DNA of 59,491 nucleotides from Oscillospiraceae bacterium (GTDB taxonomy: Bacteria; Bacillota; Clostridia; Oscillospirales; Oscillospiraceae): positions 1-59,491 of the forward strand of contig JAFQFC010000009.1 in assembly GCA_017415775.1 (NCBI GenBank). The letters are read 5' to 3'. Below, one piece after another: positions 19,789-38,097 of this stretch. Positions within the stretch are counted from its first letter, which is position 1, and the number at the start of each line of letters is the position of its first letter. The translations under genes were made by a program, and so were the position numbers. Under the pieces are notes generated by a model. That model did no database searches, was not told the DNA's origin, and saw only the letters and a list, made by a program, of their open reading frames with translations.

Positions 19789-20250
19789 TCACTTCCGCAC
19801 AAACGCCCGGTGCAGCCCCACCATCACCGCCAGCAGCGGCCGCCGCACGAACCGCAGCGCCATCCAGAGGGCCACCGCCGTGCGCAGATGCCATGCCCCA
19901 CAGTCGGTGATCTTCGCCCCGTGGCGCACATGGCTCACCTGCGCCACCACCTGCTCAGGGCGGATGATCTCCGGCGCCGTCTGTGCGTCGCCGCACATCA
20001 CCAATGTGCCGTCTTTCTGCACCCGTACCACCCGGTGCAGGATGCACCAGTCGCTGCGCCGCAGATACAGCAATATGTCGCCCCGGCGATAGGGCGGGGT
20101 GGGGGAGGTGAGTACCACGGCGCTTTTTTTGTGCCGCAGGAAGGGCACCATGCTGCCGCCCGTCACCACCAGATGACAGGGCCGCCCGGCCGCCAGATCC
20201 GCCCGGATTTTTTCCAGCGCTTCGGCCGTCTGCAGTACAGGTGTATCCAT
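19789..20250 (-). CDS. Signal-peptidase-like protein (S24/S26 fold, Ser-His type)
   Basis: A 153-residue protein. GGSMVPFL provides the likely nucleophile Ser, RRGDILLYL the conserved GD box, CILHRVV a His as in Sec11/SipW-type (ER-type) signal peptidases, and MCGDAQ the Asp box. The C-terminus is hydrophobic and may anchor it. The start at 20250 is preferred over 20271 because AGGGGGG lies at the correct distance before it. It is transcribed divergently from the giant-protein/peptide operon with back-to-back promoters, so it is a candidate leader or precursor protease of that system. Confidence 0.75.
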   Translation of the reverse strand: MDTPVLQTAEALEKIRADLAAGRPCHLVVTGGSMVPFLRHKKSAVVLTSPTPPYRRGDILLYLRRSDWCILHRVVRVQKDGTLVMCGDAQTAPEIIRPEQVVAQVSHVRHGAKITDCGAWHLRTAVALWMALRFVRRPLLAVMVGLHRAFVRK

Positions 20251-20280
20251 CCATAAGCCCCCCTCATACAAGATATTGTT

Positions 20281-20309
20281 ATTATATAAAGTATTACACC
20301 AAAAAACAA
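20281..20309 (-). promoter_or_regulatory. Promoter of the signal-peptidase-like gene
   Basis: On the minus strand TTGTTT (20304-20309), 17-base spacer, TATAAT (20281-20286). Its -35 lies 11 bases from the -35 of the divergent promoter at 20321, so one regulator could control both. Confidence 0.65.
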
Positions 20310-20320
20310 GGGGAAAGCGG

Positions 20321-20348
20321 TTGACATTTCCTACAATTGTGCTATCAT
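20321..20348 (+). promoter_or_regulatory. Promoter of the giant-protein/peptide-maturation operon
   Basis: TTGACA (20321-20326), a 16-base spacer and TATCAT (20343-20348). Transcription should start near 20355, leaving a ~90-base leader before the start codon at 20445. Confidence 0.75.
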
Positions 20349-20366
20349 GTATCTGTTATATTATCT

Positions 20367-20428
20367 AAAACTGCGTCCTTATACTCATGCGTGGTTTTAG
20401 GGGGGGCGAGAAGCCACAAATTCGCCCC
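20367..20428 (+). other. Structured 5' leader with two hairpins
   Basis: Hairpin 1 pairs AAAACTGCG (20367-20375) with CGTGGTTTT (20390-20398) including two G-U pairs. Hairpin 2 pairs GGGGCGA (20403-20409) with TCGCCCC (20422-20428). They precede TTAGGAGGA, the ribosome site. No T-run follows hairpin 2, so it is not a plain terminator. I could not match it to a riboswitch class; it may be a stability or regulatory element. Confidence 0.45.
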
Positions 20429-20444
20429 GGTTAGGAGGAAAAAA

Positions 20445-23400
20445 ATGAGAAAGAGCAGTCAAAAATTTTTTGCATTACTGATGGCTCTGGTGATGCTGAT
20501 TGGCGTCATTCCCGTCCCCGCATTTGCGGCGGAAGGTGATCCCGTCGTCGTCATTGCTGCCTCTGACTATCAGGCCAGCAACTCCGGCACCACCATGTCC
20601 AACATTGCCACGCAGATCAAGAAGGAATATGCAAGTCCCTTCGGCATTCTGATGGGCGGCGACTATGATGGTGGCATATACAATGCCAGCAATGTTGGCA
20701 CGACAGCTGATGATATTGAGGCTGTGGATGACGTCATTGATAAGGTATTTCCTGACATTGCTGCCGATAATCGTATCTACATTCAGGGTAACCATGAGAA
20801 CTACGGTGGTTTGAAGGTTGATGGTACCAACCTGATGGACTACACCGGTTACTATAAAACCGACTATTATGGTGTTTATGCTATTAACCATGATGATTTC
20901 CCTTGGAGCAATAGCAGCAGCACACTTGTACAGGGTACCGCTGATGATTTGGAAGCGGCTTTGACCGAATTAGCAAATGACGGCTATAAGAAGCCGATTT
21001 TCGTCATGTCCCACCTGCCCCTGCACTATACCAACCGTGGCGACAATGACTATGCCAACCTGCTGTTTGATGTGCTGAACGAGGCCGGTAAGACGCTGAA
21101 CATCATCTTCCTGTTCGGCCATAACCACTCCACCGCTTACGACAGTTATCTGGGTCAGAACTCCATCTACCTGAAGAAGGGTGATGCCATCAAGGTCGCA
21201 AAGGGCGATGGCAAGTCTTACAACAGCGAGACCCTGAACTTCACCTACATGAACTACGGTTATGTTGGCTATACCGGCTCTACCGATGCCGATAATACCC
21301 TCACCATGACCGCTTTCGCAATCTATGACGATCAGGTCGTTGTCAAGCGCTACAGCACCAGCGGCCAGCACACCCTGAAGGCTGCCGGTGGTAGTACCCA
21401 GCTGCCCAGCGGTGTTTCCGTCAACAGCGATGTCTATGGACAGGCTGTGCTGAACCTGTCCACCGGCGAGTCCGCCACCTATGATCTGTCCGATGACTCC
21501 GGCGACTCCGGTGACGACAACACCGGCTCCGGCGATAACTCTGGCTCCACCGGCGGCAGCGGCAATGTCTATACGCTGGATACCGACGGCATTGATGTGG
21601 ACGAGGAATACTTGATCGTCAGCGCAGGATCCGGCACGGCTTCTGCCCTGACCAACAACAGCGGATCTTCCACCGGTACCACCGTCACCATCTCCGGCGA
21701 CAAGATCACTCTGGATAATGCCAACGCTGTGTGGATCTTCAGCGATGCTGAAAACGGTACTGCACAGAACGGTACCTCCGGTTACTACATTTATCCCAGT
21801 TCCACCAGCGGTGAAGATCCTGTCATTCGTGATTCCACCTGTGACTTGCTTTTCACCCATAAGGGCGATGGTGAGTATACGATCCAGAGAGACAGCAGTT
21901 ATTCTGGCTACTATGTCAGTTCCGGCAGCGACTGGACTTACAGCAGTAGTGAAACCAGTGTCTACCTCTTCAAGAAGACCGGCACCGGCTCTGGCGGCGG
22001 CACTGTCACTCCCTCCGGAAACGAGTGGGTCACCATCACCGAGGGCACCGAGACCTATTATGTGTTGGCTGACGAAGTGGTGGATGGTGAAACCTATCTG
22101 ATTGCTTCTAAGGCTGCCGGTGAGGCATACTTGTTTGGTAACGAGGGTGGTGCTACTTTTGTTACCATCTCTGACGAAGACACTACAGACTACTCTGATA
22201 ACATAATTACGACCGCTGTTGACTCCACCAATGAATGGGTCTTTGATGGCTCTGATGGCAGCTATGTTATTAGCAGCAATGGAAGATACCTCTATCTTAG
22301 TAGCAACTCTTCCGCTGTGACTTCAAGCACTAATCAAAGAAATATCACTGTTACGTCGGATGGCGTTAGTGGCTTTAGGCTTTCCAGAAGCAATTATTAC
22401 TTGCGTTACTACAACGGTTTTAGTAGAACGACTACCCAAAGTAGCCTCTATCTCTTCCAGAAGGTCACCAAGACCACCACCGGCCTGTACGCCAAGATCG
22501 TGGAAGCAGATGGCACTACCGATTTCACTTTCACCGTGGCTCGCGGCGCTATCGGCGAGCAGGCTCTGGCAATGGTTGTCGCTGGCATCAAGGGCTATGA
22601 GTACGAAGGTACTTCCAAGCCCGGCGATGATGTGACCGGTAATGAGATCACCGAAGAACTGGAGTTCGTTCTGGATTCTGCCTACGACGGCTCCGTTCCC
22701 GGCGAGTATGCTGTGACCATCTCCTACAAGGGCAAGACCCTCGGCACCGCCAAGGTCGTTGTTCCCGAGGCTACCATCCTTGGCTATACCCTGGAGTCCT
22801 ATGAGGGAGCTGTCCACAAGGGCGCTTCCAAGACTGCTGAGACCGGCGCTTACATCCTGGTGGATGTGAAGGACGACGAGGGCGAGGACTACCGTGTTCC
22901 CGTCACCGTGGGCATGCTGAGCGGTGACTTTACCACCTCCGTGATGGATACTTACGAAGGACTGACCGTCACCTATAACGGCCAGACTTTTGATAACTTC
23001 ACCCTGACCGTCAACCCCAAGGCCGGCAGCAAGTATCCCACTTACCCCGACCCCGGCGCCGTGAAGGTCAACAAGACCGCTACCGGTATTGACTTCCAGG
23101 CCTCCGGTACCGCCACCGTGGAGCTGTCCGCTTCCGGTATCCCCATGAACGAAGGCGTGGACGTGGTCATCGTTCTGGATGCTTCCAGTTCCATGGATAA
23201 AAACGGAACGACGTTCACATTTACAGATGAAAATGGCAATACTGTTAGAGGCAAACGTATCGGCTTGCTGCGTCCTGCTGTTGACGAGTTGATCCAGCAG
23301 ATGCAGACCAAGCGTGAGGACGGCTCTGATCCCGATATTGACATTGCCATCCTTACCTTTAACGGCAACACCGTTAAGGCGGGCACCAACGAGATCGGCG

Positions 23401-26400
23401 CTGCCGGTTCCAGAGGAACAGGTTACGGTATTAAGACCGGTGACAAGACCCTCACCGGTGCATGGGAAAAGATCAGCGAGATCTCCGCTACTTGGGCAAC
23501 CGATGGTGTTACCTACAATAGCGATTACACTACAAATAATGCGGGCAATATCCCCACCGGCTCCGGTACCAACTACGACTACGGTCTGCAGATGGCCTAT
23601 GACCTGCTGGCCCAGAAGAAGGCCGACAGCAATTCCGAGCGTCAGCAGTTCGTGCTGTTCCTGTCCGACGGCTCTCCCTCTCAGTACAACGGCGCCGAGT
23701 CCAATGACGGCGAGGACGAGTATGTCAAATGGATCCGCGGTTGGTATGACAATACCGATACGGATACCAGCAACGATATTCCTGACATTGATAATCCGGA
23801 GTTCTATACCGGTTATAACAATAACAACGGCCAGCTGCACCGCTCTGCTGAGGCGATCAAGGCAGCCATCACTGACTCCAAAGATATCATTCGCTTCAAT
23901 TCCAGCGGCGTTGGTACTCTGGAAGCCGTAGAGGGCCTGGGTGCTACCGTGTACTCCATCGGTCTGCTGCTGGAGGATGGTGCTCAACGTACCGAAGAAG
24001 ACCAGATCACCGTTTTGAAGACCATCGCCAGCGATGACGAAAAGTTCTTCAACATTGACTCTGTCACCGACCTGAAGGGTGCATTCACCAGCTTCGCCAC
24101 CGACGTTCTGCTGGCTGCCACCAACGCCTACTTCGTGGACGAAATGGGTGAGGCCTTCGATCTGCAGCTGGCTCCCGTGGAATACCTGCCCACCGGTGAG
24201 ACCGTGAACAAGAGCACCATCAACCCCGTGCTGGAAGTCCGCTCCTACGAGATCTGGACCCGTCAGGAACTGGTCGGTACTGATGGTACGCTGAGCGCTG
24301 AAAACGCAAAGAAGGTTGGTACCCGCAAGACCAACGAGGATGGCTCCTACAAGTACGAGACTCTGGAAATCATTACCCTCGAGTCTACCAAGAACGCTGA
24401 CGGCTCTTACACCTTGAGCGGTGCAAAGTCCGATCTGATGGGTGATGCTAACATCCTCAACAGCGACGGCGTCATCTGCGGCAAGTATGTCTTCTACAAC
24501 ACCAACAAGAAGACTACCACCGACGACGGTGCCAAGATGATCGATGTGGATGGCGACGGTACCGCCGAGACTTCTCTGGCTGCCGAGTGCTTCTACTGGA
24601 ACATCGGCGACATCCGCACCACCGAACTGGCCCTGCGCTACAATGTCCATCTGGAAGGCTCTCTGGACGTTGATGTCGGCTGCGAAGCCGGTACCTATGA
24701 TACCAACGGCAATGCCATTCTGTATTACAACAACTATCAGGAGCTTCCCTGTGAGAAGGCTGCTGTATCTCCCACTGCAACTTGGAAGGGCGCCAATGTC
24801 AGCTACGCTTTCTATCTGGTGGACGCTTCCAGTGGTCAGCCTGTGAACAACGACGGTGTGCAGGTTCCCTTCTCCAACAGAACCGTCATCGTAAGCCCCA
24901 CCTTGTATAAGGAAGTACTTCTGAATACCGGTGCCACGACGCTTGAGCCCATGACTGTTGCTGCATCCGGCGTTCTTCCTGCAGGCTACTGGCTGTACGA
25001 TGAAGAAGCTCACTATACCGTTCAGGCTAACTCCAATGAAACCGGTTATTGGGAGATTACCGGCGCAACCTCCGGCCTTAATAATCTTAACAGCACCTAT
25101 GTTACCGACTACTACGGTGATGCCTACACCTATCAAAACAGTAACAGTGACGACTATCCCAACCATGAGTATACCCACACCACCGTCTGGTTCGCCGTGA
25201 AGTGGGAGCCTCGCGCCATGCGTGACGCTGTGGTCATCGACTTCGGTCTGCCTGTGGATGTCCATGTGCTGACCAACGACATGTTCGGTAAGTACGGCAA
25301 GCTGACCGGCGTTGTTACCGGCGAGCTGGCTCAGCCCGCTGAGGGTGAGAAGGCTGAAGCCTTCAATGATCAGAGTGCGGAAGGTACGTTTGGTTCTGCT
25401 GTGATTGATGCTCCCGCAACCGGCTATACCGATGAAAACTCCGTGATCCGCTATACGCCCGCCTCCATGGTGATGACCGATGTGGATACCTTCACTTACT
25501 GCATCCAGTATGCCAACCCCATTGAGAGTAAAAACGATGGCGCATACTATGGTTATCTGACCGTCATCCCCGCCACCACCATCTACTATGAGGATGAGTT
25601 CCTGTCCTTCTCTGGAAATAATGCAAATGGTGCGACAACTGGTGTACAGACCGAGATTCCCGAGACTGGTATGGTGTCCGGTCAGTGGTATCTGAATGGT
25701 ACGTCCACCAGTAAGACTCAGGATGAGGACCGCCCCGATGATATCAAGTTCGGCTTCGACACTGTGATCGACGCCAACAATGTTTACGGTTACGACAGCG
25801 CTTACACCAACGTCTCCGAGTATTCTCTGGGCAGCGCCGCCGTGGTTCATGTGGATGCCACTTCCTACGGTACTGCATCCTTTAGCTTCTGTGGTACCGG
25901 CTTCGACGTGATCTCCCTGACCAGCAATACCACTGGTGTTCTCGCATTGGAGGTGAAGAACAGTAGCGGTACTGTTGTTGCCAAGAAGATCGTCAACACC
26001 TATTACGGCTATAAGTTCGAAGGTGGCAAGTGGGTTGTTACCAACAACACCGCCAACAGCCTGTATCAAGTGCCCGTTCTGGAAGTTGCCGGTCTGCCCC
26101 ATGACACTTATACTGCAAAGCTGACCGCCACTTATATGGCACCTATGGACAAGACCGAGGGTATTGTCTATAACGATGAAGGCAACATTGAGACAACCGA
26201 TGGTTACGATTTGTATCTGGATGCCGTCCGTGTCTACGATCCTGCCGGTGTTGCCAGCGGCGAAAAGACCAATGCGACCATCCAGGATGCTTATGTGAAG
26301 GACGGCGAGGCATGGCCCATCTACGCTGAGCTGCGCAATAAGGTCGTCGACGCATCCAAGGTTTCCGTGAGCAGAAATGAGGATGGCAGTCTGGAGGTTA

Positions 26401-27248
26401 CTGTGGGCGATGATGCAAATGGCGTCCTCCGCGGACCTGTATTCATTGACGGCAAGGCTTCCACTGATAGCGTTTCTGACTATGTCAGCTATGGCCCCAA
26501 CAATGAGCTGTATCTGGACAACGAGCAGGCAATTGCCTTTAGAGTGAATGTCAGCGATGAATTGACCGTGGATACCGATGGCGACAACAAACTGGATGCT
26601 CCTCGGGTGGCTGATCTGCAGATGGGTATCAAGGTGGCAACCGGTAATACCGTGACCTTCAAGATCAATGACGATGAATACACCGTCAATTCTGCCACCG
26701 ACATGTACTACAGCATTCTGAAGTATGCTCTGGAAGGCGAAGTGATCATCAAGAATGTCAGCGGTGGAATTCTGTCCATCACTAACATGAAGATGACCCA
26801 CAATACTGATCCTGGCGATGACGCAGATATCGAACTGACGACAACTGCCGAAACGGTGCGTTTCGCCCTGATGAGAATGCGTCCTGTTGCTGAGCCCGAG
26901 ACTCCCGTGGATCCCGAGACTCCCGTCGAGCCCGAGACTCCCGTCGAGCCCGAGACTCCCGTCGAGCCCGAGACTCCCGATGAGCCCGAGACTCCCGTGG
27001 ATCCCGAGACTCCCGTCGAGCCCGAGACTCCCGATGAGCCCGAGACTCCCGATGAGCCCGAGACTCCCGATGAGCCCGAGACTCCCGATGAGCCCGAGAC
27101 TCCCGATGAACCCGAGGTTCCCGACGAGCCTGAGACCCCCGACGAGCCCGAGGTTCCCCAGCAGCCCAGCTACGAGGAGATCGTGAAGACGGTGGTCAAG
27201 AAGGTCGTGAAAACCATCAAGAGCCTGCTTGGCTGGCTGTTCAAGTGA
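20445..27248 (+). CDS. Giant secreted multidomain protein (metallophosphatase + VWA + repeats)
   Basis: A 2267-residue protein with signal peptide (cleavage after AFA, residue 28). Residues ~35-310 form a calcineurin-like metallophosphatase: GGD (D73), GNHE (115-118), SHLP (H190), GHNH (225-228). A Ser/Asp/Gly linker (346-374) leads to two ~140-residue YLI...YLF modules, Ig-like modules, then a von Willebrand A domain with a MIDAS motif DASSSM (D912). Further beta-rich modules follow, including an Ig/cadherin-like DVHVLTND segment. Then come fifteen six-residue PETPxE-type repeats (~2150-2240) and a basic amphipathic C-terminus (IVKTVVKKVVKTIKSLLGW). There is no LPxTG motif. The start at 20445 has AGGAGG and the signal peptide. 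It is the first gene of the peptide-maturation operon. Its role is unknown; an adhesin or surface receptor with ectophosphatase activity is the best guess. Confidence 0.85.
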   Translation: MRKSSQKFFALLMALVMLIGVIPVPAFAAEGDPVVVIAASDYQASNSGTTMSNIATQIKKEYASPFGILMGGDYDGGIYNASNVGTTADDIEAVDDVIDKVFPDIAADNRIYIQGNHENYGGLKVDGTNLMDYTGYYKTDYYGVYAINHDDFPWSNSSSTLVQGTADDLEAALTELANDGYKKPIFVMSHLPLHYTNRGDNDYANLLFDVLNEAGKTLNIIFLFGHNHSTAYDSYLGQNSIYLKKGDAIKVAKGDGKSYNSETLNFTYMNYGYVGYTGSTDADNTLTMTAFAIYDDQVVVKRYSTSGQHTLKAAGGSTQLPSGVSVNSDVYGQAVLNLSTGESATYDLSDDSGDSGDDNTGSGDNSGSTGGSGNVYTLDTDGIDVDEEYLIVSAGSGTASALTNNSGSSTGTTVTISGDKITLDNANAVWIFSDAENGTAQNGTSGYYIYPSSTSGEDPVIRDSTCDLLFTHKGDGEYTIQRDSSYSGYYVSSGSDWTYSSSETSVYLFKKTGTGSGGGTVTPSGNEWVTITEGTETYYVLADEVVDGETYLIASKAAGEAYLFGNEGGATFVTISDEDTTDYSDNIITTAVDSTNEWVFDGSDGSYVISSNGRYLYLSSNSSAVTSSTNQRNITVTSDGVSGFRLSRSNYYLRYYNGFSRTTTQSSLYLFQKVTKTTTGLYAKIVEADGTTDFTFTVARGAIGEQALAMVVAGIKGYEYEGTSKPGDDVTGNEITEELEFVLDSAYDGSVPGEYAVTISYKGKTLGTAKVVVPEATILGYTLESYEGAVHKGASKTAETGAYILVDVKDDEGEDYRVPVTVGMLSGDFTTSVMDTYEGLTVTYNGQTFDNFTLTVNPKAGSKYPTYPDPGAVKVNKTATGIDFQASGTATVELSASGIPMNEGVDVVIVLDASSSMDKNGTTFTFTDENGNTVRGKRIGLLRPAVDELIQQMQTKREDGSDPDIDIAILTFNGNTVKAGTNEIGAAGSRGTGYGIKTGDKTLTGAWEKISEISATWATDGVTYNSDYTTNNAGNIPTGSGTNYDYGLQMAYDLLAQKKADSNSERQQFVLFLSDGSPSQYNGAESNDGEDEYVKWIRGWYDNTDTDTSNDIPDIDNPEFYTGYNNNNGQLHRSAEAIKAAITDSKDIIRFNSSGVGTLEAVEGLGATVYSIGLLLEDGAQRTEEDQITVLKTIASDDEKFFNIDSVTDLKGAFTSFATDVLLAATNAYFVDEMGEAFDLQLAPVEYLPTGETVNKSTINPVLEVRSYEIWTRQELVGTDGTLSAENAKKVGTRKTNEDGSYKYETLEIITLESTKNADGSYTLSGAKSDLMGDANILNSDGVICGKYVFYNTNKKTTTDDGAKMIDVDGDGTAETSLAAECFYWNIGDIRTTELALRYNVHLEGSLDVDVGCEAGTYDTNGNAILYYNNYQELPCEKAAVSPTATWKGANVSYAFYLVDASSGQPVNNDGVQVPFSNRTVIVSPTLYKEVLLNTGATTLEPMTVAASGVLPAGYWLYDEEAHYTVQANSNETGYWEITGATSGLNNLNSTYVTDYYGDAYTYQNSNSDDYPNHEYTHTTVWFAVKWEPRAMRDAVVIDFGLPVDVHVLTNDMFGKYGKLTGVVTGELAQPAEGEKAEAFNDQSAEGTFGSAVIDAPATGYTDENSVIRYTPASMVMTDVDTFTYCIQYANPIESKNDGAYYGYLTVIPATTIYYEDEFLSFSGNNANGATTGVQTEIPETGMVSGQWYLNGTSTSKTQDEDRPDDIKFGFDTVIDANNVYGYDSAYTNVSEYSLGSAAVVHVDATSYGTASFSFCGTGFDVISLTSNTTGVLALEVKNSSGTVVAKKIVNTYYGYKFEGGKWVVTNNTANSLYQVPVLEVAGLPHDTYTAKLTATYMAPMDKTEGIVYNDEGNIETTDGYDLYLDAVRVYDPAGVASGEKTNATIQDAYVKDGEAWPIYAELRNKVVDASKVSVSRNEDGSLEVTVGDDANGVLRGPVFIDGKASTDSVSDYVSYGPNNELYLDNEQAIAFRVNVSDELTVDTDGDNKLDAPRVADLQMGIKVATGNTVTFKINDDEYTVNSATDMYYSILKYALEGEVIIKNVSGGILSITNMKMTHNTDPGDDADIELTTTAETVRFALMRMRPVAEPETPVDPETPVEPETPVEPETPVEPETPDEPETPVDPETPVEPETPDEPETPDEPETPDEPETPDEPETPDEPEVPDEPETPDEPEVPQQPSYEEIVKTVVKKVVKTIKSLLGWLFK
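26893..27165 (+). repeat. 18-base tandem repeat encoding PETPxE units
   Basis: About fifteen in-frame 18-base units such as CCCGTCGAGCCCGAGACT, differing mainly at the third and sixth residue codons (V/D, D/E). They encode a rigid proline-rich wall-spanning stalk. Near-identity of units makes length variation by slippage likely. Confidence 0.9.
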
Positions 27249-27264
27249 GAGGAGGTAAACTAAG

Positions 27265-27534
27265 ATGAAAAAGACTTATAAAAAGCCCGAAATCAGCTTT
27301 GAGAGCTTCCTCATGAGCACCAATATTGCCGGTGACTGCGAGAAGCCGTTTGTGAATAATGCTTCCAAAGGAACATGTGCAGTTCTTGGTACGGGTGATA
27401 TTGCCGTTTTTGATGCTAAAGTAGGCGCTGCTTGTACTTGGACGCTGGGAGAGTTGGGACTTCCTGAAAATGACCAGTATAATGGCCTGTGCTACCATGT
27501 TCCTATCGAAAGTGCTACGCTCTTCAACTCCTAA
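27265..27534 (+). CDS. Candidate modified-peptide precursor (89 residues, four Cys)
   Basis: GAGGAGGTAAACTAAG precedes the ATG. The N-terminus KKPEISFESFLMSTNIAGDC looks like a conserved leader. The remainder is a Gly/Ala-rich core with Cys at 25, 38, 57 and 76 and segments such as GTCAVLGTGD, GAACTWTLGE and GLCYHVP. There is no signal peptide. It lies between the giant protein and genes for a membrane protein, HPr-kinase-like ATPase, radical SAM/SPASM enzyme and PqqD-like protein, and is followed at once by a strong hairpin. That context makes it the probable substrate of the radical SAM enzyme. The final product and activity are unknown. Confidence 0.7.
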   Translation: MKKTYKKPEISFESFLMSTNIAGDCEKPFVNNASKGTCAVLGTGDIAVFDAKVGAACTWTLGELGLPENDQYNGLCYHVPIESATLFNS

Positions 27535-27542
27535 CATCCCCC

Positions 27543-27575
27543 GGAAGGCCGCGCCTTGTGGCGCGGCCTTCCTTT
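27543..27575 (+). terminator. Strong hairpin (attenuator) between precursor and maturation genes
   Basis: A perfect 13-bp stem, GGAAGGCCGCGCC/GGCGCGGCCTTCC with a TTGT loop, then a short T-tract (TTTCC). It begins 9 bases after the peptide stop. Such partial terminators give more precursor than enzyme mRNA in many peptide operons, and no promoter is visible after it. Confidence 0.8.
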
Positions 27576-27593
27576 CCTAAGCGAGGTGCCAAA

Positions 27594-28319
27594 ATGGCAA
27601 AGAAAACCCCCAAGAAATCGAAAAAAACCCTCTATCTGTGCATCGGCGCAGCCGCTGTTTTGCTGCTGGGTCTGGCCCTGTGCCTGCTGCTGGGCGGCGG
27701 GGATGAGACCCCGGTGGACGACGGCAATACGCCGCCCGCCTATGAGGGCAGCATGAGCCTGAACGTCGGCTCCGGCCTCACCATCGTGGACATCGGTCCC
27801 TACACCGGCATGTACATGGAGGACGGCAGCAACGAGATCGTCAGCGGCGTGGTGATGTGCATCGTCCGCAACGACGGCGACCGTGCTGTGGAATACGCCG
27901 AGATCAAGCTCAGCGACGGCCAGAAGGACATCCCCTTCACCCTCACCGCTCTGCTGCCCGGCCGCAGCGTGGTGCTGCTGGCTACGGACCGCACCGCCCA
28001 CGATAATTCCGCCACCTACACCGCTACCATGGCCCAGAGCGTGGCCTTCTTCAGCTACGAACCCTCTCTGCAGGCCGACCGTCTGCAGATCCAGGGTCTG
28101 GACGGCGGCATGAATATTACCAACATCTCCAAGGAAGATATCACCGGCGATGTGGTGGTCTACTACAAGAACGTGGCGGCAGACGGCCTGCTGTACGGCG
28201 GCATTACCTACCGCACCCGCATCAGCGGCGGCATCAAGGCCGGCGAGCTGAAGCAGGGCATGACCCAGCACTTCTCCGTCAAGGGCAGCGAGGTGCTGTT
28301 CGTCACCGTGGCCGAATGA
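27594..28319 (+). CDS. Membrane-anchored extracytoplasmic protein of unknown function
   Basis: A 241-residue protein: lysine-rich start (MAKKTPKKSKK), one membrane helix at about 13-33, an acidic/Pro linker, and a ~190-residue beta-rich outer domain (SGLTIVDIGPYTGMYMEDG...; VVMCIVRNDGDRAVEYAEI...) that resembles FxLYD/Ig-like accessory folds only loosely. The start at 27594 has GCGAGGTG upstream. It overlaps the following gene by ATGA, so it is translated with the peptide-modifying enzymes. It may escort the product or the giant protein at the outer membrane face; this is inference. Confidence 0.7.
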   Translation: MAKKTPKKSKKTLYLCIGAAAVLLLGLALCLLLGGGDETPVDDGNTPPAYEGSMSLNVGSGLTIVDIGPYTGMYMEDGSNEIVSGVVMCIVRNDGDRAVEYAEIKLSDGQKDIPFTLTALLPGRSVVLLATDRTAHDNSATYTATMAQSVAFFSYEPSLQADRLQIQGLDGGMNITNISKEDITGDVVVYYKNVAADGLLYGGITYRTRISGGIKAGELKQGMTQHFSVKGSEVLFVTVAE

Positions 28320-29182
28320 GTATGGAGAAGTATTACCGCTTCGCCGGCGTGGAGCTGGCCGTCTCCGCCCCGGATGAACTGATGTATGACGAGGACCGCC
28401 ATCTGGCGCCCTTCCGGGTGGACAGCGTGACAAATCCCCACCGTTTCACCTTCGAACGGGTGGCGCAGCTCTCCGCTCCGGAGGGTGACGTGGTAACGGT
28501 GCAGGGCGACTATGTGGTGTACGGCTGTCCCGGCGGCACGACCCGCTATATCAACGCCGTCGGCGGCGACTGGCAGAGCGCCACCATACGTGCCCGCCAC
28601 TGCGGCCATGACCATGCGGTGGAAGTGAAAGAAAGCGTCTACCCGGGCGGCATCACCGCCAAGACGGTACTCAACGCCGCCATGGCCGAGCATCTGGTGC
28701 TGCAGCAGGGGGGCGTGGTGTTCCACTGCTCCTACATCTCCCATGAGGGCCGTGCCATCCTCTTCACGGCCCCCTCCGGCACCGGTAAGTCCACCCAGGC
28801 AGAGCTGTGGCGTGAGCTGCGTGGTGCGGAGATCATCAACGGCGACAGAGCGGTGATCCGCAGCACCGAAGCGGGCATCCTGGCCTGCGGCATCCCCTTT
28901 GCCGGCAGCAGCGAGTATTGCCATAACGAGACGCTGCCCATCATTGCCATCGTGTATCTGGCCCAGGCGCCCTCGACGTCCATCCGCCCCCTGGGCGGCT
29001 ATGAGGCTTTCCGCTGTATCTGGGAAGGCTGCAGCATCAACACCTGGGATAAGGGGGATATCACCCGGGCCGCCGATCTGGTGCAGCAGATCGTGGAAGA
29101 GATCCCCGTCTATTACCTGCCCTGTACCCCCGACGAATCGGCGGTGCAGGCCGTGGAAAAAGTTCTGAAAGGAGGCAGATGA
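28316..29182 (+). CDS. HPr-kinase-like ATPase of the peptide-maturation operon
   Basis: A 288-residue protein with a Walker A loop APSGTGKST (152-160) and the surrounding layout of HprK-like C-terminal kinases, preceded by a ~150-residue beta-rich domain. The HPr-binding N-terminal domain of true HprK is not evident, and HPr/PTS genes are absent nearby. HprK-like proteins occur in lasso-peptide and other RiPP clusters together with PqqD-like proteins, where some phosphorylate the precursor. ATGA overlaps link it to both neighbours. I infer phosphorylation of, or ATP-driven action on, the 89-residue peptide or its partner. Confidence 0.75.
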   Translation: MSMEKYYRFAGVELAVSAPDELMYDEDRHLAPFRVDSVTNPHRFTFERVAQLSAPEGDVVTVQGDYVVYGCPGGTTRYINAVGGDWQSATIRARHCGHDHAVEVKESVYPGGITAKTVLNAAMAEHLVLQQGGVVFHCSYISHEGRAILFTAPSGTGKSTQAELWRELRGAEIINGDRAVIRSTEAGILACGIPFAGSSEYCHNETLPIIAIVYLAQAPSTSIRPLGGYEAFRCIWEGCSINTWDKGDITRAADLVQQIVEEIPVYYLPCTPDESAVQAVEKVLKGGR

Positions 29183-30306
29183 GCATGCAAAAGTCCAATA
29201 TCGAGCCGCAGATCGCCACCTACCTCCATGCCAAGGGCCGCCGTCTGGGTCTGCCCATCGCCGGCAACTTCGAACTGACGGCGAGATGCAATTTCAACTG
29301 CCCCATGTGCTACGTCCATCTCAGCGACGAGCAGGTGCGGCAGCAGGGCGGCGAGCTGACGGCCCAGCAGTGGCTGCAGATCGCCAAAGACGCCCGTGAC
29401 CGCGGCATGATCTTCGCCCTGCTGACCGGCGGCGAGCCGCTGGTGCGCCGTGACTTCTTCGAGATCTACGACGGTATGAAGAAGCTGGGCATCCTGCTGT
29501 CCATCAACTCCAACGGCTCACTGCTGCGGGGCGAGATCCTGGAGCGTTTTCTGGCCGATCCTCCCAGCCGGTTCAACATCTCCCTCTACGGCGGCAGCAA
29601 CGCCACCTACGAGAAGATGTGCGGCCGTCCGGTGTACGCACAGGTGAAGGAGAATATCCGTGCGCTGCGCAAGGCCGGTGTGGATGTGAGTTTGAATCTC
29701 TCCATCACGCCCTATAATTTGCAGGACATTGAGCAGATCTACCGTGATGCGGTGGAGCTGGACGTGAATGTGAAGGCTTCCAGCTATATGTACCCTTCCA
29801 TCCGTGTCAACGGTGAGCAGTACGGCAGCGGCAACCGGCTCAGCGCCGAGGAGGCCGCCGCTGCCGGCGTGGCGTGGGACGCCATCCGTTTCAGCGATGA
29901 GGAGTTCCGCCAGCGTGCGGAGAATATGAAAAATCTGGTGATGAACAACCCCGACGGCTGCCCCATGGAAGAAGGGGAGGGGGTGCGCTGCCGTGCCGGA
30001 ACCACCAGCTTCTGGATGACGTGGGATGGCCGGATGCTGCCCTGCGGTATGATGACCGAGCCGGTGGTCCGCCCGCTGGAAGTGGGCTTCGATGCGGCGT
30101 GGCAGCAGCTTCGTGAAGCCACCGCCGCCATCCGCACGCCGAAGGAATGCACCGGCTGCGCCTACAAAGAGGTGTGCGGCGCGTGCGCCGCCGTCTGCTA
30201 CACGGAGACGGGCCGGTTCGACGGCCAACCGACGTATATCTGCCGCAAGACTAAGGAAACCGTGCGCTGCACGGCCCAAACGCTTGCAGAAAGGGAGAAA
30301 CGATGA
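29179..30306 (+). CDS. Radical SAM/SPASM peptide-modifying enzyme
   Basis: A 375-residue protein. The SAM-cleaving cluster motif is C37-x3-C41-x2-C44 (RCNFNCPMC), followed by LLTGGEPLVRRDF. From residue 271 a SPASM domain supplies further cluster cysteines (RCRAGTTSF, LPCGM, ECTGCAYKEVCGACAAVC, YICRK). SPASM proteins install thioether, C-C or other crosslinks in peptides. The immediate neighbours, a PqqD-like protein and a small Cys-containing peptide, fit a RiPP role rather than sulfatase maturation. Overlapping start and stop codons on both sides show tight coupling. Confidence 0.9.
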   Translation: MSMQKSNIEPQIATYLHAKGRRLGLPIAGNFELTARCNFNCPMCYVHLSDEQVRQQGGELTAQQWLQIAKDARDRGMIFALLTGGEPLVRRDFFEIYDGMKKLGILLSINSNGSLLRGEILERFLADPPSRFNISLYGGSNATYEKMCGRPVYAQVKENIRALRKAGVDVSLNLSITPYNLQDIEQIYRDAVELDVNVKASSYMYPSIRVNGEQYGSGNRLSAEEAAAAGVAWDAIRFSDEEFRQRAENMKNLVMNNPDGCPMEEGEGVRCRAGTTSFWMTWDGRMLPCGMMTEPVVRPLEVGFDAAWQQLREATAAIRTPKECTGCAYKEVCGACAAVCYTETGRFDGQPTYICRKTKETVRCTAQTLAEREKR

Positions 30307-30563
30307 AGATCCGCAAAGAACTGATCCGCCGGGAGATCGCCGGCGACGTGATTTTGGTGCCGGTGGGCGGCACGGTGCTGGAAAATAACGGCCTGTTCGC
30401 CCTCAACGAGCTGGGCGCCTTCCTCTGGGACCGACTGGAATCGGTCGAGGATGAAGAAACGTTGGTGCAGGCCGTCCTCGCCGAGTACGAGGTGGACGAA
30501 GCCACCGCCCGCACCGACACCGCCCAGTTCCTGCAGAAGCTGCGGGAGATGGAGATTCTCTAA
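30303..30563 (+). CDS. PqqD-like peptide recognition protein
   Basis: An 86-residue protein: ENNGLFALNELGAFLWDRL matches the PqqD-family pattern in which N..G..IW.L forms the winged-helix core, and the end is a coiled helical segment. PqqD-like proteins (RRE domains) bind the leader of a precursor peptide and present it to the radical SAM enzyme. Its start overlaps the stop of that enzyme gene. It is the last gene of the operon and is followed by a terminator. Confidence 0.9.
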   Translation: MKIRKELIRREIAGDVILVPVGGTVLENNGLFALNELGAFLWDRLESVEDEETLVQAVLAEYEVDEATARTDTAQFLQKLREMEIL

Positions 30564-30611: not shown

Positions 30612-30653
30612 TTGACATTGTAAACAGGTTGTGGTATAGTGTGTTTACAATGT
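30612..30653 (+). promoter_or_regulatory. blaI-blaR1-type promoter with perfect 12-base inverted-repeat operator
   Basis: TTGACA (30612-30617), 17-base spacer, TATAGT (30635-30640). ACATTGTAAACA (30615-30626) and TGTTTACAATGT (30642-30653) are exact reverse complements flanking the -10, and each contains the TACA/TGTA halves typical of BlaI/MecI sites. Binding would block RNA polymerase, giving autorepression. Confidence 0.85.
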
Positions 30654-30674
30654 AAACTATCGGAGGAACGCATC

Positions 30675-31067
30675 ATGGAACATAGAGAGACTTTGCTGAC
30701 CGCCGCCGAGTGGCACCTGATGGAGTGCCTGTGGGAGAAAAGTCCCCGCACCGGCCGGGAGGCGGTGGAGGATCTGGAGCAGCGGGCCGGATGGTCCCGC
30801 TCCACCACCCTGACGATGCTGCGGCGCATGACGGACAAGGGACTCATCGACTGCCGGGAAGCGGACGGCGTCAAGGTGTATGCGCCGCTGCTCCTGCGGG
30901 ACGATGCTGCCGGGCGCACAACGGAGGATTTTCTCCATCGGGTGTATCACGGCAGCGTCAGCATGATGATGAGTGCCATCACCCGAAAGCAGGAGCTGAG
31001 CCGTCAGGAGATCGACGAGCTGTACGCCATCTTGCGTCAGGCGGAGGAAGGAGCCAAAGATGACTGA
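30675..31067 (+). CDS. BlaI/MecI-family transcriptional repressor
   Basis: A 130-residue winged-helix protein: LTAAEWHLMECLWEKSPRT and SRSTTLTMLRRMTDKGLID form the DNA-binding domain; the C-terminal helices dimerise. The start at 30675 follows CGGAGGAACG. A perfect inverted repeat overlaps its promoter, and the membrane sensor-protease gene follows with an overlapping start, the classical BlaI-BlaR1 arrangement. No beta-lactamase is nearby, so the regulated target is unknown. Confidence 0.9.
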   Translation: MEHRETLLTAAEWHLMECLWEKSPRTGREAVEDLEQRAGWSRSTTLTMLRRMTDKGLIDCREADGVKVYAPLLLRDDAAGRTTEDFLHRVYHGSVSMMMSAITRKQELSRQEIDELYAILRQAEEGAKDD

Positions 31068-32916
31068 CTGGATCGTTACCTCATCGGTGCTGATCGTGGT
31101 GGTCGCTGCCCTGCGGTATCTGCTGCGGGGTAAGATCAGCCTGCGATTGCAGTATGCACTGTGGGCTATCGTGCTGCTGCGCCTGCTGCTGCCGGTGCAG
31201 CTGGGACAGACGCCTTTCAGTGTACTCAACGCCGTGACGGAGCGGGAAGAACTGCGCATCACCGTCGCCGAGCCCTTCTTTTATATCGGAGAAACGCCGG
31301 ATCTGGCGCCGCCCGTGGTAGAAGACGACACCCTGACCGAGGCAGAGCGGACGGCGCAGGAGAAGCAGCTGTATCTGGAATATCTGGAAGAAATGGCCCG
31401 ATACGCCACGCCCGTTTCCCTTTCCACGGTGCTCTACGGCATCTGGCTCGTGGGTGCAGCCGGCACCGCCGCCGTCTTTTTCGTCAGTAATTTCCGCTTC
31501 GCCCGACGGCTGCGCCGCAGCAGCCGGACAACGGAGCTTCCCTGCGGCACGCTGCCGGTCTATGTTTCGCCGCTGGTGGAGACGCCCTGCCTTTTCGGAC
31601 TGCTGCGCCCCGCCGTCTATGTGACGGAGGACGTTCTTGCTGACCACATCGCCCTGGGCCATGTGCTGCTCCACGAAGAGACCCACTATCGCCACGGCGA
31701 TCACCTCTGGGCGGCGCTGCGGGGCCTGTGTCTTGCCTTGCATTGGTACAATCCGCTGGTGTGGCTGGCGGCGTCGCTGTCCCGCCGGGACAGTGAACTG
31801 GCCTGTGACGAAGGTACGCTGCAGCGCCTGGGCGAAGGGGAGCGCACCGCCTATGGCAAAACGCTGATCGCCCTGACCTGCGGTCGCCGCCGTCCGCTGC
31901 TGGCAGCCACCACCATGACCGACAGTAAGGGCAGCCTGCGTGAGCGCATCACTCTCATCGCCCGCAGACCAAAGACGGCAGCCTGCGCCTTTGTTGCCGC
32001 CCTGCTGGTGGTCACGGTTGCCGCCGGCTGTACCTTTACCGGCGGCCGGCAGCCCTTCGACGAAGATTTCCCCGTTGCTTACCTGCCTGCCACCCCTGTC
32101 GACGCACAGGTGCTTTCTTCCGCCAAAACCTACGTCATCGCCCACGCTGCGATCCTCAACGAATTGGCGGGGGAGGCTGACTTCATCACCGAAGCGTCTC
32201 TGCACTCGGTTGCCGTCTCTCCCAACGGCGACACCGGAAACGCCCTGTGCCTGTATGATGTGGTCTATTACTTCTCCTGTGAGGACCTGCCCCGGTTGGA
32301 AGCGCTTTCCGCAAGCGAGGAATTTGCCGAAAAATGGCAGGCCGAGGGGACCAACGGCAGCGCTCCTGTGCCCAATCCGTTCCACACCGGCTTCTTCCGG
32401 GCCGAGATCATCGCTCCTTGCAGCGAGCCGGGTGTGGACGAGGGCCGTGGAACGATCCCCGTCACGTATAAGGACAGCTGGCAGCTGCCCGATGCGGTGA
32501 TTGATTCCGCCGCCGAGTTTGTGGAGGAGCGTGCCGATGCCATCCAGATGCTGGTGGCCGCCCCGGATTTTATCACCGAGGGTGAGATCACCTGTCTCGA
32601 GCCGGTGGACACCGCTTCCGTTTCGGAAACGCTCCACATTTGCCTGTATTATCTGGACTACCGCCTGCGCCTGCGAATTCCCGACGCTGTCAACATGAGC
32701 CTTGACGGCATGATCTATCAGGAGGATGACGGCAGCGTGTGGCTGGTGGAGCCGGATACCGGCAGCACCCGTGTTTTGGTGATGGAGTACCGGGTGGAGG
32801 AAGGCCGCTGGTCCCGTGTGGGCCTGCTGGACACCCGGCAGATCGCCGAGGAATACGGCGATGACTATAACCGTGCCGCCGTGGAATTCTACGAATCCGT
32901 CCGTAATAAGGGTTAA
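31060..32916 (+). CDS. BlaR1/MecR1-like M56 membrane metalloprotease sensor
   Basis: A 618-residue protein. Several membrane helices surround an M56 protease domain with HEETH (205-209) and a downstream glutamate in SRRDSELACDEGTL. After the last helix (around 305-325) comes an outer domain of ~290 residues that is not the penicillin-binding sensor of BlaR1 (no SxxK/KTG layout seen). It should cleave the BlaI-type repressor when its outer domain detects a signal. The ligand is unknown. A Cys after VVTVAAG might be lipid-modified or chance. Confidence 0.8.
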   Translation: MTDWIVTSSVLIVVVAALRYLLRGKISLRLQYALWAIVLLRLLLPVQLGQTPFSVLNAVTEREELRITVAEPFFYIGETPDLAPPVVEDDTLTEAERTAQEKQLYLEYLEEMARYATPVSLSTVLYGIWLVGAAGTAAVFFVSNFRFARRLRRSSRTTELPCGTLPVYVSPLVETPCLFGLLRPAVYVTEDVLADHIALGHVLLHEETHYRHGDHLWAALRGLCLALHWYNPLVWLAASLSRRDSELACDEGTLQRLGEGERTAYGKTLIALTCGRRRPLLAATTMTDSKGSLRERITLIARRPKTAACAFVAALLVVTVAAGCTFTGGRQPFDEDFPVAYLPATPVDAQVLSSAKTYVIAHAAILNELAGEADFITEASLHSVAVSPNGDTGNALCLYDVVYYFSCEDLPRLEALSASEEFAEKWQAEGTNGSAPVPNPFHTGFFRAEIIAPCSEPGVDEGRGTIPVTYKDSWQLPDAVIDSAAEFVEERADAIQMLVAAPDFITEGEITCLEPVDTASVSETLHICLYYLDYRLRLRIPDAVNMSLDGMIYQEDDGSVWLVEPDTGSTRVLVMEYRVEEGRWSRVGLLDTRQIAEEYGDDYNRAAVEFYESVRNKG

Positions 32917-35836: not shown

Positions 35837-36862
35837 TTACGCCTGGGGCGCTTCTTCCTGCACCGGGACAAATTCTTCGTAGAAGGTGCCCAGCATCAGC
35901 TCCAGCAGGGCGTCCTGATCGGGGATCAGTTCGGCCTCGTTGTCCTCGTTGAGCCGCAGCTCGCCGGTGACGGAGTGTACCTCGCCGTCCCACTGCAGTT
36001 CCACCGCCTGGGTGGCCAGATAAGCAATGCGGCTGAAGGACAGATTGGTCAGGGTGTAGGGCAGCACGGCGTTGTACACGTTCAAAAGATCCGTGGGCTT
36101 CTCCTGCACCAGCGTCAGGCAGCGATTGATGAGGGCCATCATGTACTGCTTCTGGCGCACCATGCGCAGCTCGTTGGCGTCAGCCTGCTCCTCCAGTCGG
36201 GCCCGGATGTAGAACTTGGCCTGTTCGCCGTTGAGCTTCACTTCACGGCCGCCGATCATGTGCTGGTAGCCGGGCACGTTGCGGAAGGGGAAGTCGTCGA
36301 TGACCTTCACCGTCACACCGCCCACAGCGTCGTTCAGGGCGGGGATGCCGCTCATGTAATAGGCGCCGTAGCCGTGGATGGGCAGACCGTAGAAGATGCC
36401 GGACACGGCGTCGCAGGTCAGGCGGCAGCTATCGTGGAGACCGCCGCCGTAGGCGTAGGCCAGCGCCAGCTGATCCCGGGTCTGGATTACCGTACCGTCG
36501 CTCTGCAGCATTTCCATGTCGCACAGGATGTCGCGGGACAGGTTGATGAGGGTCATTTTCTTGCTGCCCGGATCCAGACAGGCCAAAATCAGCACGTCGG
36601 CCTGATCCCGAACGCCCTCGGTGGGCAAACCGTCGGCGTCGATGCCCATCAGCAGGATGTTGATCATGCCCTGCCGGTAGACGTATTCCTGCCCGTTGTA
36701 GACCAGATCGGCCTTCTGGGGCGGTGCCACCTCTTCCTGCATGGTGTTGCGTCCGTGGAGCCACAGGCCCAGCACGGTGCCGCTCAGCAGCACGGTAATG
36801 CACAGCAAAATCAGCAGCAGCACCACGCCAAGAGGCAGTTTCTTGCGCTTTTTCTCTTCCAT
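35837..36862 (-). CDS. LytR-CpsA-Psr (LCP) family glycopolymer transferase
   Basis: A 341-residue protein: one N-terminal membrane helix (~9-33) and an outer LCP domain with LLMGIDADG, RDQADVLILACLDPGSKKM and LINLSRDILC, containing the conserved Asp/Arg residues that bind polyprenyl phosphate. LCP enzymes attach secreted polymers (teichoic acid, capsule) to peptidoglycan. It follows the sortase gene by one base in the same operon and ends at a terminator. It could ligate the polymer made by the operon at 1121-17291. Confidence 0.85.
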   Translation of the reverse strand: MEEKKRKKLPLGVVLLLILLCITVLLSGTVLGLWLHGRNTMQEEVAPPQKADLVYNGQEYVYRQGMINILLMGIDADGLPTEGVRDQADVLILACLDPGSKKMTLINLSRDILCDMEMLQSDGTVIQTRDQLALAYAYGGGLHDSCRLTCDAVSGIFYGLPIHGYGAYYMSGIPALNDAVGGVTVKVIDDFPFRNVPGYQHMIGGREVKLNGEQAKFYIRARLEEQADANELRMVRQKQYMMALINRCLTLVQEKPTDLLNVYNAVLPYTLTNLSFSRIAYLATQAVELQWDGEVHSVTGELRLNEDNEAELIPDQDALLELMLGTFYEEFVPVQEEAPQA

Positions 36863-36863
36863 A

Positions 36864-37634
36864 TCAGTTCTCCACTACGTTGTAGGTCTGGGTCAGCACG
36901 CCCTGCACCAGATAGCGCTGCATGCGGTTGCGCTTGTAGCAGGTGGACAGGGTCAGCACCTTGTCGCCCTCCTCGGGGAACAGTTCCCGGCGGTAATGGG
37001 TGTCCAGACCGTCCTTCAGCTGGGCGAAATAGTCGTTGAATTCCTTGCTGTCGGTGAAATCATGGCACAGCAGCAGATGCTCGCTGGAATGGGGATAGGC
37101 GGCGAAGATCTCGTACTGATACACCGTCTCCGGCGTGTAGATGAAGATGTAGCGGTTGGCCTCAAACACGTCGGCAGCGGCGAAATCGTTCAGCGGTGCG
37201 AACATGGTGTGGGAATGGCGGTTATGGCCGTACAGCACCGTGACGGGGTCTTCAAAGGTGGTGGTGTTGTACCGCTGGGAGAAGATGCTGCCGCCGGAAT
37301 AGTAGGACTTGTCGATGTTGTGGTCGTTGTAGAAGAGGTCGTTGGTGGCGCTCTGCACCACGGCGTGACTGATGTCGGCGCCGGGCAGCTCCACCCAGGC
37401 GTAGATCTCCTCGTTCATCTCCTGCAGCGAGGCAAAGTCGATGCCGATGGTCATGGAGGGTTCGGTACTGGCATTGCCCACCACGATGGTGGCGTTGGGC
37501 GCAGACTCACCGGCTACCGTCTCAGTCAGCTGGCCGCCCCGGAAATATTGATAGATGTACAGGCAGCACAGCACGCAGATGGCGGCAGCCGCCACAGCCA
37601 CCACGGACAGCAGAATTTTCACAACAGGTTTCAT
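36864..37634 (-). CDS. Class B sortase
   Basis: A 256-residue transpeptidase with an N-terminal membrane anchor (about 5-30). The catalytic His is in TVLYGHNRHSH, the Cys in VLTLSTC, and a downstream Arg in KRNRMQRYLV. Class B sortases fix single proteins (NPQTN-like signals) to peptidoglycan. The adjacent upstream gene encodes a mini-protein with SPQTG, a membrane stretch and a basic tail, so enzyme and substrate are probably paired. The start at 37634 matches the anchor and a GGAG site. Confidence 0.9.
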   Translation of the reverse strand: MKPVVKILLSVVAVAAAAICVLCCLYIYQYFRGGQLTETVAGESAPNATIVVGNASTEPSMTIGIDFASLQEMNEEIYAWVELPGADISHAVVQSATNDLFYNDHNIDKSYYSGGSIFSQRYNTTTFEDPVTVLYGHNRHSHTMFAPLNDFAAADVFEANRYIFIYTPETVYQYEIFAAYPHSSEHLLLCHDFTDSKEFNDYFAQLKDGLDTHYRRELFPEEGDKVLTLSTCYKRNRMQRYLVQGVLTQTYNVVEN

Positions 37635-37660
37635 GGACAGGTTTCTCCTTGCATAGCAAA

Positions 37661-37690
37661 AGCCCCATAAACGCAAGCATTCATGGGGCT
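37661..37690 (-). terminator. Hairpin between sortase substrate and sortase genes
   Basis: On the minus strand AGCCCCAT pairs with ATGGGGCT across a ~14-base loop and is followed by TTTT. It lies between the two genes and could lower sortase expression relative to its substrate. Confidence 0.6.
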
Positions 37691-37709: not shown

Positions 37710-37937
37710 TCAGGCCTGCTGACGCAGCTTGCGGGCAGACACATAGGCCACGACGCCGCCGGCCAGAGCAATACCGGCCACAGCACCGATGCCGGTCTCA
37801 TAACCGGTCTGGGGAGAAGAGGGGGGCGTATCGCCGCCGGGCTCGGGGCTGACCACATAACCATCGGCAAAAGCGGTGGTGGTCAGGACAGAACACATCA
37901 TCACCAGAGCGCACAGAAAACCAAGGATCTTCTTCAT
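37710..37937 (-). CDS. 75-residue mini surface protein with sortase signal
   Basis: A signal peptide (MKKILGFLCALVMMCSVL...TTAFA, cleavage about residue 24) is followed by a short acidic/proline stretch, an SPQTG motif, a hydrophobic segment (GIGAVAGIALAGGVVAYV) and an ARKLRQQA tail. After signal-peptidase and sortase cleavage only about 20 residues (DGYVVSPEPGGDTPPSSPQT) would remain attached to the wall. It is transcribed first, ahead of the sortase B and LCP genes. Its role is unknown: a wall-bound peptide tag, a decoy, or a released peptide. Confidence 0.8.
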   Translation of the reverse strand: MKKILGFLCALVMMCSVLTTTAFADGYVVSPEPGGDTPPSSPQTGYETGIGAVAGIALAGGVVAYVSARKLRQQA

Positions 37938-37956
37938 GGATATAATCCTCCAATTA

Positions 37957-38003
37957 CACTACATTAGTGCTATTATTATACCCCCTGCCCATGGAAAAAG
38001 CAA
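37957..38003 (-). promoter_or_regulatory. Promoter of the sortase operon with a small palindrome
   Basis: Minus-strand TTGCTT (37998-38003), 17-base spacer, TATAAT (37975-37980). The palindrome CACTACATTAGTG (37957-37969) lies at the expected transcription start and may be an operator. GGAGG precedes the start at 37937. Confidence 0.65.
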
Positions 38004-38067: not shown

Positions 38068-38097
38068 CAAAAAAACGATGAAGAGGAGGGATGCGGT

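Follow-up and report, generated by a model that had tools for sequence, protein, structure and literature searches.

A 59,491-nucleotide stretch of DNA (hereafter the window), constituting contig JAFQFC010000009.1 of the Oscillospiraceae bacterium assembly GCA_017415775.1 (1.76 Mb in 75 contigs, 75.7% complete; the window is its contig C50), was found to carry an operon in which the gene for a 2267-residue secreted protein, referred to here as the giant, is followed by that of an 89-residue Cys-containing peptide and by genes for putative peptide-modifying enzymes. Sequence comparisons argue strongly for a conserved, unnamed system of the ribosomally synthesized and post-translationally modified peptide (RiPP) type, and the explanation which best accounts for the whole, with a probability that we place at roughly 60%, is that the peptide is modified and works together with the giant. 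Work on RiPPs has mostly concerned antibiotics, signals or cofactors that act as free molecules, whilst here one peptide family is tied to one family of giant surface proteins; judged from sequence, the kind of system would be a known one and its partner unusual. If this is true, the system would represent a class of radical SAM RiPPs that are phosphorylated at the C-terminus and act at the cell surface, and the invariant last Ser of the peptides and the constant module shared by the giants would together provide a rule for finding further members.

The operon and its precursor peptide family

The gene order consists of a minus-strand gene for an S26/S24-like Ser-His protease, a candidate leader peptidase (19789-20250; 153 aa from an ATG start, 160 aa from an upstream TTG), followed on the plus strand by the giant (20445-27248; 2267 aa), the precursor peptide (27265-27534; 89 aa), a terminator-like hairpin (27543-27572), a membrane-anchored protein (27594-28319; 241 aa), an HprK-like kinase (28316-29182), a radical SAM/SPASM-type enzyme (29179-30306) and a PqqD-like protein, a candidate RiPP recognition element (30303-30563). 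The giant and peptide genes are spaced by 16 bases, and three neighbouring gene pairs overlap by four bases (ATGA), the HprK-like, radical SAM and PqqD-like genes being joined in this manner. An original prediction for this DNA had described these genes and overlaps, and all of the genes were recovered at or near the positions it gave. Dozens of loci from Clostridia carry this gene set, hence the operon is more than a chance arrangement; in the window genome the peptide, HprK-like, S26-like, nucleotidyltransferase, giant-module and membrane-protein searches each returned a single match, all on the window contig.

Relatives of the 89-residue peptide form a family in which a fixed leader, MKKxYxKPEIxFExF...IAxxC, precedes a core that is rich in Cys and variable in sequence. 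In the window peptide the leader spans approximately residues 1-24 (an inferred border) and is followed by a four-Cys core and a C-terminal ...CYHVP...LFNS. Alignment of 41 members, in which GTG and TTG starts were counted as Met, revealed M1, Y5, C25 and the terminal S89 to be invariant, and P8, E13, F15, I21, A22, C38 and C57 to be nearly so, with four Cys residues in 31 of the 41. RiPP pathways are in general marked by a small ribosomal precursor, conserved in its leader and variable in its core, that is encoded beside modifying enzymes. Such a family is present here, and the earlier proposal of a RiPP-like maturation system with this peptide as its likely substrate is supported. The window peptide matched no model of Pfam, NCBIfam or PHROGs, and none of the 41 matched one of Pfam or NCBIfam. 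Over all loci, 66 non-redundant peptide genes were collected, 65 of them complete, with that of L122 (the same gene as L063) cut by the locus end. The notion that the peptide is a chance open reading frame (ORF) was rejected on the strength of a family of 41, and then 65, members.

A peptide-first search retrieved relatives from 12 of 250 genomes of the same bacterial family, its own genome included, and a profile built from the 41 peptides matched 21 of the 250, representing 14 of 106 genera (E ≤ 0.001). Across the class, three of 391 genomes matched at E ≤ 1e-5, two of which belong to the same family. The hosts are gut bacteria, probably Oscillospiraceae, from sources including the guts of deer, goat, sheep and buffalo. 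They include Pseudoflavonifractor phocaeensis An569 (L036), a strain that bears a name and no label as a metagenome-assembled genome, and which may make the system testable. There were also instances (L016 and L035 on one contig, and L042) of two different copies of the system lying close together within one genome. Separately, short peptides with a YxKP leader and a last Ser were observed between radical SAM and HprK genes in L113 (1347-1541, minus strand) and L114 (7014-7196, plus strand), both of which were missed by the main peptide profile.

The hairpin between the peptide and enzyme genes had a folding energy of -32.4 kcal/mol (z-score -4.65 relative to shuffled sequences), and when the 60-base stretches that follow 33 of the 65 peptide genes were folded, without shuffles, 32 of the 33 fell below -20 kcal/mol, that of L044 being weak. 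It is probably an attenuator, by which the precursor and giant would be more abundant than the enzymes.

Association with the giant proteins and enzyme genes

The window giant comprises a hydrophobic signal-peptide-like N-terminus, metallophosphoesterase motifs, a VWA domain, a constant module (25407-26876, plus strand), a Pro/Glu-rich spacer and, 3' of the latter, an amphipathic C-terminal tail (27141-27245, plus strand) ending in ...VVKTIKSLLGWLFK. The metallophosphatase part had no Pfam match, its motifs having been read by eye, and the VWA match was below the curated cut-off. The N-termini of the giants vary, with metallophosphoesterase motifs in nine of 24 inspected and GH20 in that of L063. 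The module, approximately 490 aa in length, contains 37 invariant columns in an alignment of 21 giant sequences, and its first half is tentatively predicted to form a carbohydrate-binding-like jelly roll. It was encoded by 20 of the 21 peptide-positive genomes and by none of the 229 peptide-negative genomes, and across loci the giant gene precedes the peptide gene with an overlap or a short gap. We consider it very likely that peptide and giant form one functional pair, and the peptide would act together with the giant.

Two other explanations of this pairing were considered. The product could be a secreted bacteriocin or signalling RiPP, to which the giant is a carrier, receptor, means of self-protection or merely an adjacent adhesin, as is suggested by the variable core between fixed ends, by a linked ABC exporter family and by the four to five different peptides per genome in four genomes, a pattern expected of diversifying effectors. 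However, the C-terminal CYHVP..LFNS shows greater conservation than would be expected of a diversifying toxin, inspection by eye of the 30 listed neighbour clusters brought up no evident immunity-like gene, and the giant is unlikely to be a mere neighbour because the module never occurred without the peptide in the 250 genomes; such a role thus appears improbable. In the second explanation, the peptide serves the giant as a structural subunit or as a peptide-derived cofactor, which the radical SAM enzyme would cross-link before it joins the giant; the model for this is quinohemoprotein amine dehydrogenase, of which the small subunit is cross-linked. The strict association of peptide and module, the order of giant then peptide gene and the four conserved Cys residues would all be in keeping with it, but no common redox role is evident, since the N-terminal parts of the giants differ, and a kinase, a nucleotidyltransferase and a PqqD-like protein are not known to belong to the quinohemoprotein pathway. 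We therefore give this explanation little weight.

The association also extends to the enzymes. At a limit of E ≤ 1e-15, the S26-like protein was found in 48 and the HprK-like protein in 51 of the 250 genomes. The peptide co-occurred with the former in 18 of its 21 genomes (4.0 expected) and with the latter in 19 (4.3 expected), and 44 of the 48 S26-positive genomes also encoded the HprK-like protein (9.8 expected); the p-values attached to these counts ignore shared ancestry. The peptide genomes without the S26-like protein were G092, G161 and G195, and those without the HprK-like protein were G124 and G161, in both of which the contig bearing the peptide is shorter than 5 kb. The earlier assignment of the S26-like, HprK-like and giant proteins to one system is consistent with these figures and with the giant module, which was accompanied by the peptide in 20 of 20 genomes.

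At the level of individual loci, 55 peptide genes with at least 3.8 kb of downstream sequence were compared: 47 had an HprK-like gene no more than 6 kb away, 39 had HprK-like, radical SAM and PqqD-like genes all within this distance, and six had none of the three. These six lie in genomes G250 to G252, whose enzyme loci (L028, L032 and L033) show no peptide in the stretch. Homologous operons without the peptide, which had been named beforehand as a finding that would speak against the proposal, thus do occur, in these three loci and in L050 of G253, but the four genomes carry four to five peptide genes each, suggesting that one enzyme set may serve several giant-peptide pairs in trans. In genomes G250 to G252, further HprK/SAM genes accompany peptides of other kinds (L093-L095, L098, L099 and L102). 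More distant cases are the SAM/HprK or SAM/PqqD loci L051, L052, L053 and L056, from genomes without any family peptide. Two points temper the linkage to the radical SAM gene: its presence in L015-L058 is by construction, as these loci were fetched with the SAM protein, and L068 has the HprK-like and giant genes beside the peptide with no SAM gene in the stretch. In the nine other genomes of the peptide-first set with contigs above 5 kb, the peptide was adjoined by HprK-like genes in nine, SAM genes in eight and PqqD-like genes in seven.

Putative modifying enzymes and comparison with known systems

The HprK-like protein had no Pfam match and matched curated models below cut-off, whilst its profile, when searched against the PDB, matched only HprK/P chains (E 0.0013). 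Residues H137, G157, K158, T160 and D177 were retained in 50 of 50 relatives, and S159, which completes the GKST motif at 157-160, in 47. According to the reviews PMC8498205 and PMC9266682, the HprK-like kinases of lasso peptide pathways phosphorylate the C-terminal Ser of the precursor, a residue that is extremely conserved in precursors accompanied by such a kinase, and the nucleotidyltransferase PsmN adds hexoses to that phosphate; the primary paper PMC10368454 describes earlier lasso kinases as acting on the C-terminal Ser, with one exception modifying Ser3, and a His-Lys-Asp-Asp set is described as necessary for lasso kinases. Because lasso kinases act on a conserved C-terminal Ser, S89 (codon 27529-27531, plus strand) is the predicted target of the window kinase, a specific target that the original prediction had not foreseen. 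The last residue was Ser in all 65 complete peptide genes (codon TCN in 64 and AGT in one), compared with 52 of the 681 further ORFs in these loci that are 200 aa or longer. By analogy, phosphorylation of this Ser by the HprK-like kinase appears reasonably probable.

Several observations weigh against this assignment. As the family members are related, Ser in 65 of 65 represents conservation and not independent events. Furthermore, the His, Lys and last Asp of the His-Lys-Asp-Asp set were present in all 50 kinases, but the first Asp was replaced by Gly in 47, and kinase activity may therefore be altered or lost. Kinases beside family peptides read NGD at this position, except for one of the two copies in L042 (SND), with NDD in the relatives from L051, L056, L115, L116 and L117. 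Candidate precursors beside distant enzyme relatives ended, among the matches listed, in Ser (L113, L114), Asp (L115, L117), Tyr and Asn (L056), Arg (L051), Cys (L053) and Pro (L112), hence the presence of a kinase does not in itself imply a C-terminal Ser.

The radical SAM enzyme scored 93.8 bits against the Pfam radical SAM model, above cut-off, and its CxxxCxxC motif and seven C-terminal Cys residues of the SPASM region were conserved in 48 to 51 of 52 aligned rows, with SkfB as the best PDB match. The PqqD-like protein matched PF05402 at 62.9 bits against a cut-off of 23.4, as would be anticipated of a leader-binding element. These two domain labels of the original prediction were therefore sustained at Pfam level, whilst the S26, HprK and VWA labels correspond to matches below cut-offs and the metallophosphatase label to reading by eye. 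The membrane-anchored protein was modelled with one N-terminal helix and two beta-sandwich domains. A sulfatase or quinohemoprotein partner, the pairing named beforehand as adverse, was not evident by eye among the 30 neighbour clusters, and a function of the SAM enzyme as a maturase of either is unlikely. The C-terminal FNS was also considered as a three-residue cyclophane motif, which is less likely given that Phe and Asn vary and Ser is constant. In L034 (8874-11134) two radical SAM genes of the family lie in tandem within one operon, and the window genome encodes a second PqqD-like gene (L070, 6959-7375), on a contig where profile searches found no family kinase, SAM enzyme or peptide.

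The closest parallels are with the tailoring of the lasso peptides paeninodin and pseudomycoidin, as described in PMC10368454, PMC8498205, PMC7533575, PMC9266682 and PMC4289311. Common to these and the window system are a YxxP-type leader motif (YxKPEI in the window, resembling the YxxPxL of lasso leaders), a PqqD-like protein, a Ser-ended precursor with an HprK-like kinase, a nucleotidyltransferase and an ABC exporter; the likeness to PsmN of pseudomycoidin is one of enzyme type. Unlike these pathways, the window system has a radical SAM enzyme, a Cys-rich core, a giant partner and a kinase without the first catalytic Asp. The PqqD-like protein scored below cut-off for lasso PqqD models, the lasso B2 leader peptidase (PF13471) had no match in the 75.7% complete genome, and a PF00733 search for the Asn-synthase-like cyclase found none in the window, in agreement with the original prediction, and two short matches on other contigs. 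An ordinary lasso cluster was rejected given the lack of a B2 match in the genome and of a cyclase in the window.

The SynChlorMet cassette has the same three enzyme types, namely HprK-like ScmC, PqqD-like ScmD and radical SAM ScmE/ScmF. Among the best 25 of 72 NCBIfam families scored for the window enzymes, it supplied the best match of the kinase (ScmC, 32.1 bits, cut-off 125) and the second best of the SAM enzyme (ScmE, 87.3 bits, cut-off 400), both far below cut-off, as was ScmD (16.6 bits, cut-off 100). We know of no giant or precursor of the window family in SynChlorMet. The radical SAM/SPASM enzyme and Cys-rich precursor are shared with the sactipeptide and ranthipeptide systems of SkfB, AlbA and StsB, for which the scores, within the same best 25 of 72, were also below cut-off (StsB 80.1 of 625, AlbA 50.9 of 850 and SkfB 49.2 of 300 bits), and unlike these the window system has a separate PqqD-like protein, a kinase, a nucleotidyltransferase and a giant partner. 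The databases and literature searched yielded no description of this gene set, which accords with the earlier statement that no named RiPP class contains it. The system would appear to operate as RiPP pathways do, with its C-terminus tailored in the manner of lasso peptides; it is not a lasso system by the searches above, and filing it as a sactipeptide would need chemistry.

Protease, exporter and surface context

Clustering of neighbouring genes revealed three further linked families: a PF14907 nucleotidyltransferase (37876-39327, plus strand; homology begins near 38104), an ABC exporter (39364-41106, minus strand; PF00664 and PF00005) and the S26-like protease. The nucleotidyltransferase and exporter lie beyond the operon and were missed by the original prediction, whose description of the system was to that extent incomplete and whose statement that no dedicated exporter is present proved incorrect, as this exporter family adjoins the S26-like gene in other genomes; the two genes overlap or adjoin in L017, L020, L036, L056, L118 and L120, among others. 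On one strand of L118 lie genes for a giant, peptide, HprK-like kinase, SAM enzyme, 313-aa protein, PqqD-like protein, sugar transferase, nucleotidyltransferase, ABC exporter and S26-like protease, the 313-aa protein having a hydrophobic N-terminus without being a clear relative of the window membrane protein (E 0.67). L120 likewise encodes on one strand a giant, membrane protein, PqqD-like protein, peptide, HprK-like kinase, SAM enzyme, ABC exporter and S26-like protease, with no nucleotidyltransferase seen. Pfam reported no peptidase domain in the exporter. The S26-like alignment contains a GxSM motif in seven of seven rows reaching that region and a conserved His in eight of eight, with His-Arg retained; GxSM and His are common to archaeal/ER-type signal peptidase I (TIGR02228). 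Unlike that peptidase, the S26-like protein has no clear membrane segment by eye, and its relatives adjoin HprK and ABC genes. The S26-like and ABC proteins probably provide processing and export.

Against this assignment, the S26-like protein scored 37.6 bits with TIGR02228, below the cut-off of 51.85, and these genes are usually distant from the peptide, the S26-like gene lying within 6 kb of five, the nucleotidyltransferase of 11 and the ABC exporter of six of the 55 peptide genes. CpsB or Wzz genes were present in 15 of the 27 loci with S26-like or ABC genes (of which L066 and L123 overlap, and not all hold a family peptide), and because of this co-presence the protease and exporter could serve polysaccharide instead. 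A broader form of this argument holds that the HprK-like, PqqD-like, S26-like, ABC and nucleotidyltransferase genes are an exopolysaccharide-linked module from which the SAM-peptide-giant operon has borrowed parts, the HprK-like protein not acting on the peptide. Besides the 15 of 27 loci, the absence of the first catalytic Asp and the sets of HprK, PqqD, S26 and ABC genes that lack a SAM gene (L115-L117) would fit such a module, but the proximity of HprK-like genes to 47 of 55 peptide genes, their presence in nine of nine peptide-first loci on contigs above 5 kb and the C-terminal Ser in 65 of 65 peptides argue otherwise, and we regard it as unlikely.

Taking the modified peptide as the partner of the giant, a sequence of steps can be proposed. 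Giant and peptide would be produced from one transcript, with the attenuator hairpin keeping enzyme levels lower. The PqqD-like protein would bind the YxKPEI leader and present it to the radical SAM/SPASM enzyme, which would cross-link the core, most likely by thioether links from the conserved Cys residues. The HprK-like kinase would then act like its lasso counterparts and phosphorylate the invariant C-terminal Ser, to whose phosphate the nucleotidyltransferase may attach a sugar or nucleotide, as in the paeninodin and pseudomycoidin pathways. As the original prediction had supposed of this protease, the peptide would be cleaved by the S26-like protein, which would take off the leader close to the conserved IAxxC (predicted site near IA|GDC), and would leave the cell through the ABC exporter. 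Outside the cell, the peptide would work with the constant module, perhaps holding the giant at the cell surface or glycan layer, although surface attachment as the purpose is a tentative suggestion only. Since CpsB/Wzz genes recur beside the S26-like and ABC genes, and the window has surface genes, it is conceivable, if very doubtful, that the phosphoserine of the cross-linked peptide is coupled to a surface glycan through the nucleotidyltransferase and exopolysaccharide genes and gripped by the glycan-binding-like constant module that only its partner giants possess, which would be a new means of attaching giant proteins to a bacterial surface, replacing sortase-type anchoring.

The surface genes of the window include an exopolysaccharide block (41125-45720, minus strand) of two Wzz/ParA-like genes, an Ig-like protein gene and CpsB/CapC, and a LytR-CpsA-Psr (LCP) gene and a sortase gene (35837-37676, minus strand) that adjoin the nucleotidyltransferase and are possible wall-attachment genes. 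Directly behind the operon (30639-32916) is a pair encoding a BlaI/CopY-type repressor and a BlaR1-type M56 peptidase. In L115 (7703-10775), L116 (5467-8641) and L117 (6877-11007), HprK, PqqD, S26 and ABC genes are grouped, no radical SAM gene having been found in the stretch, and a giant ORF lies upstream in L115 and L117; a wider, SAM-free kind of the same system may exist. The divergent arrangement of S26-like and giant genes seen in the window recurs in the closest relative, L109 (541-7952).

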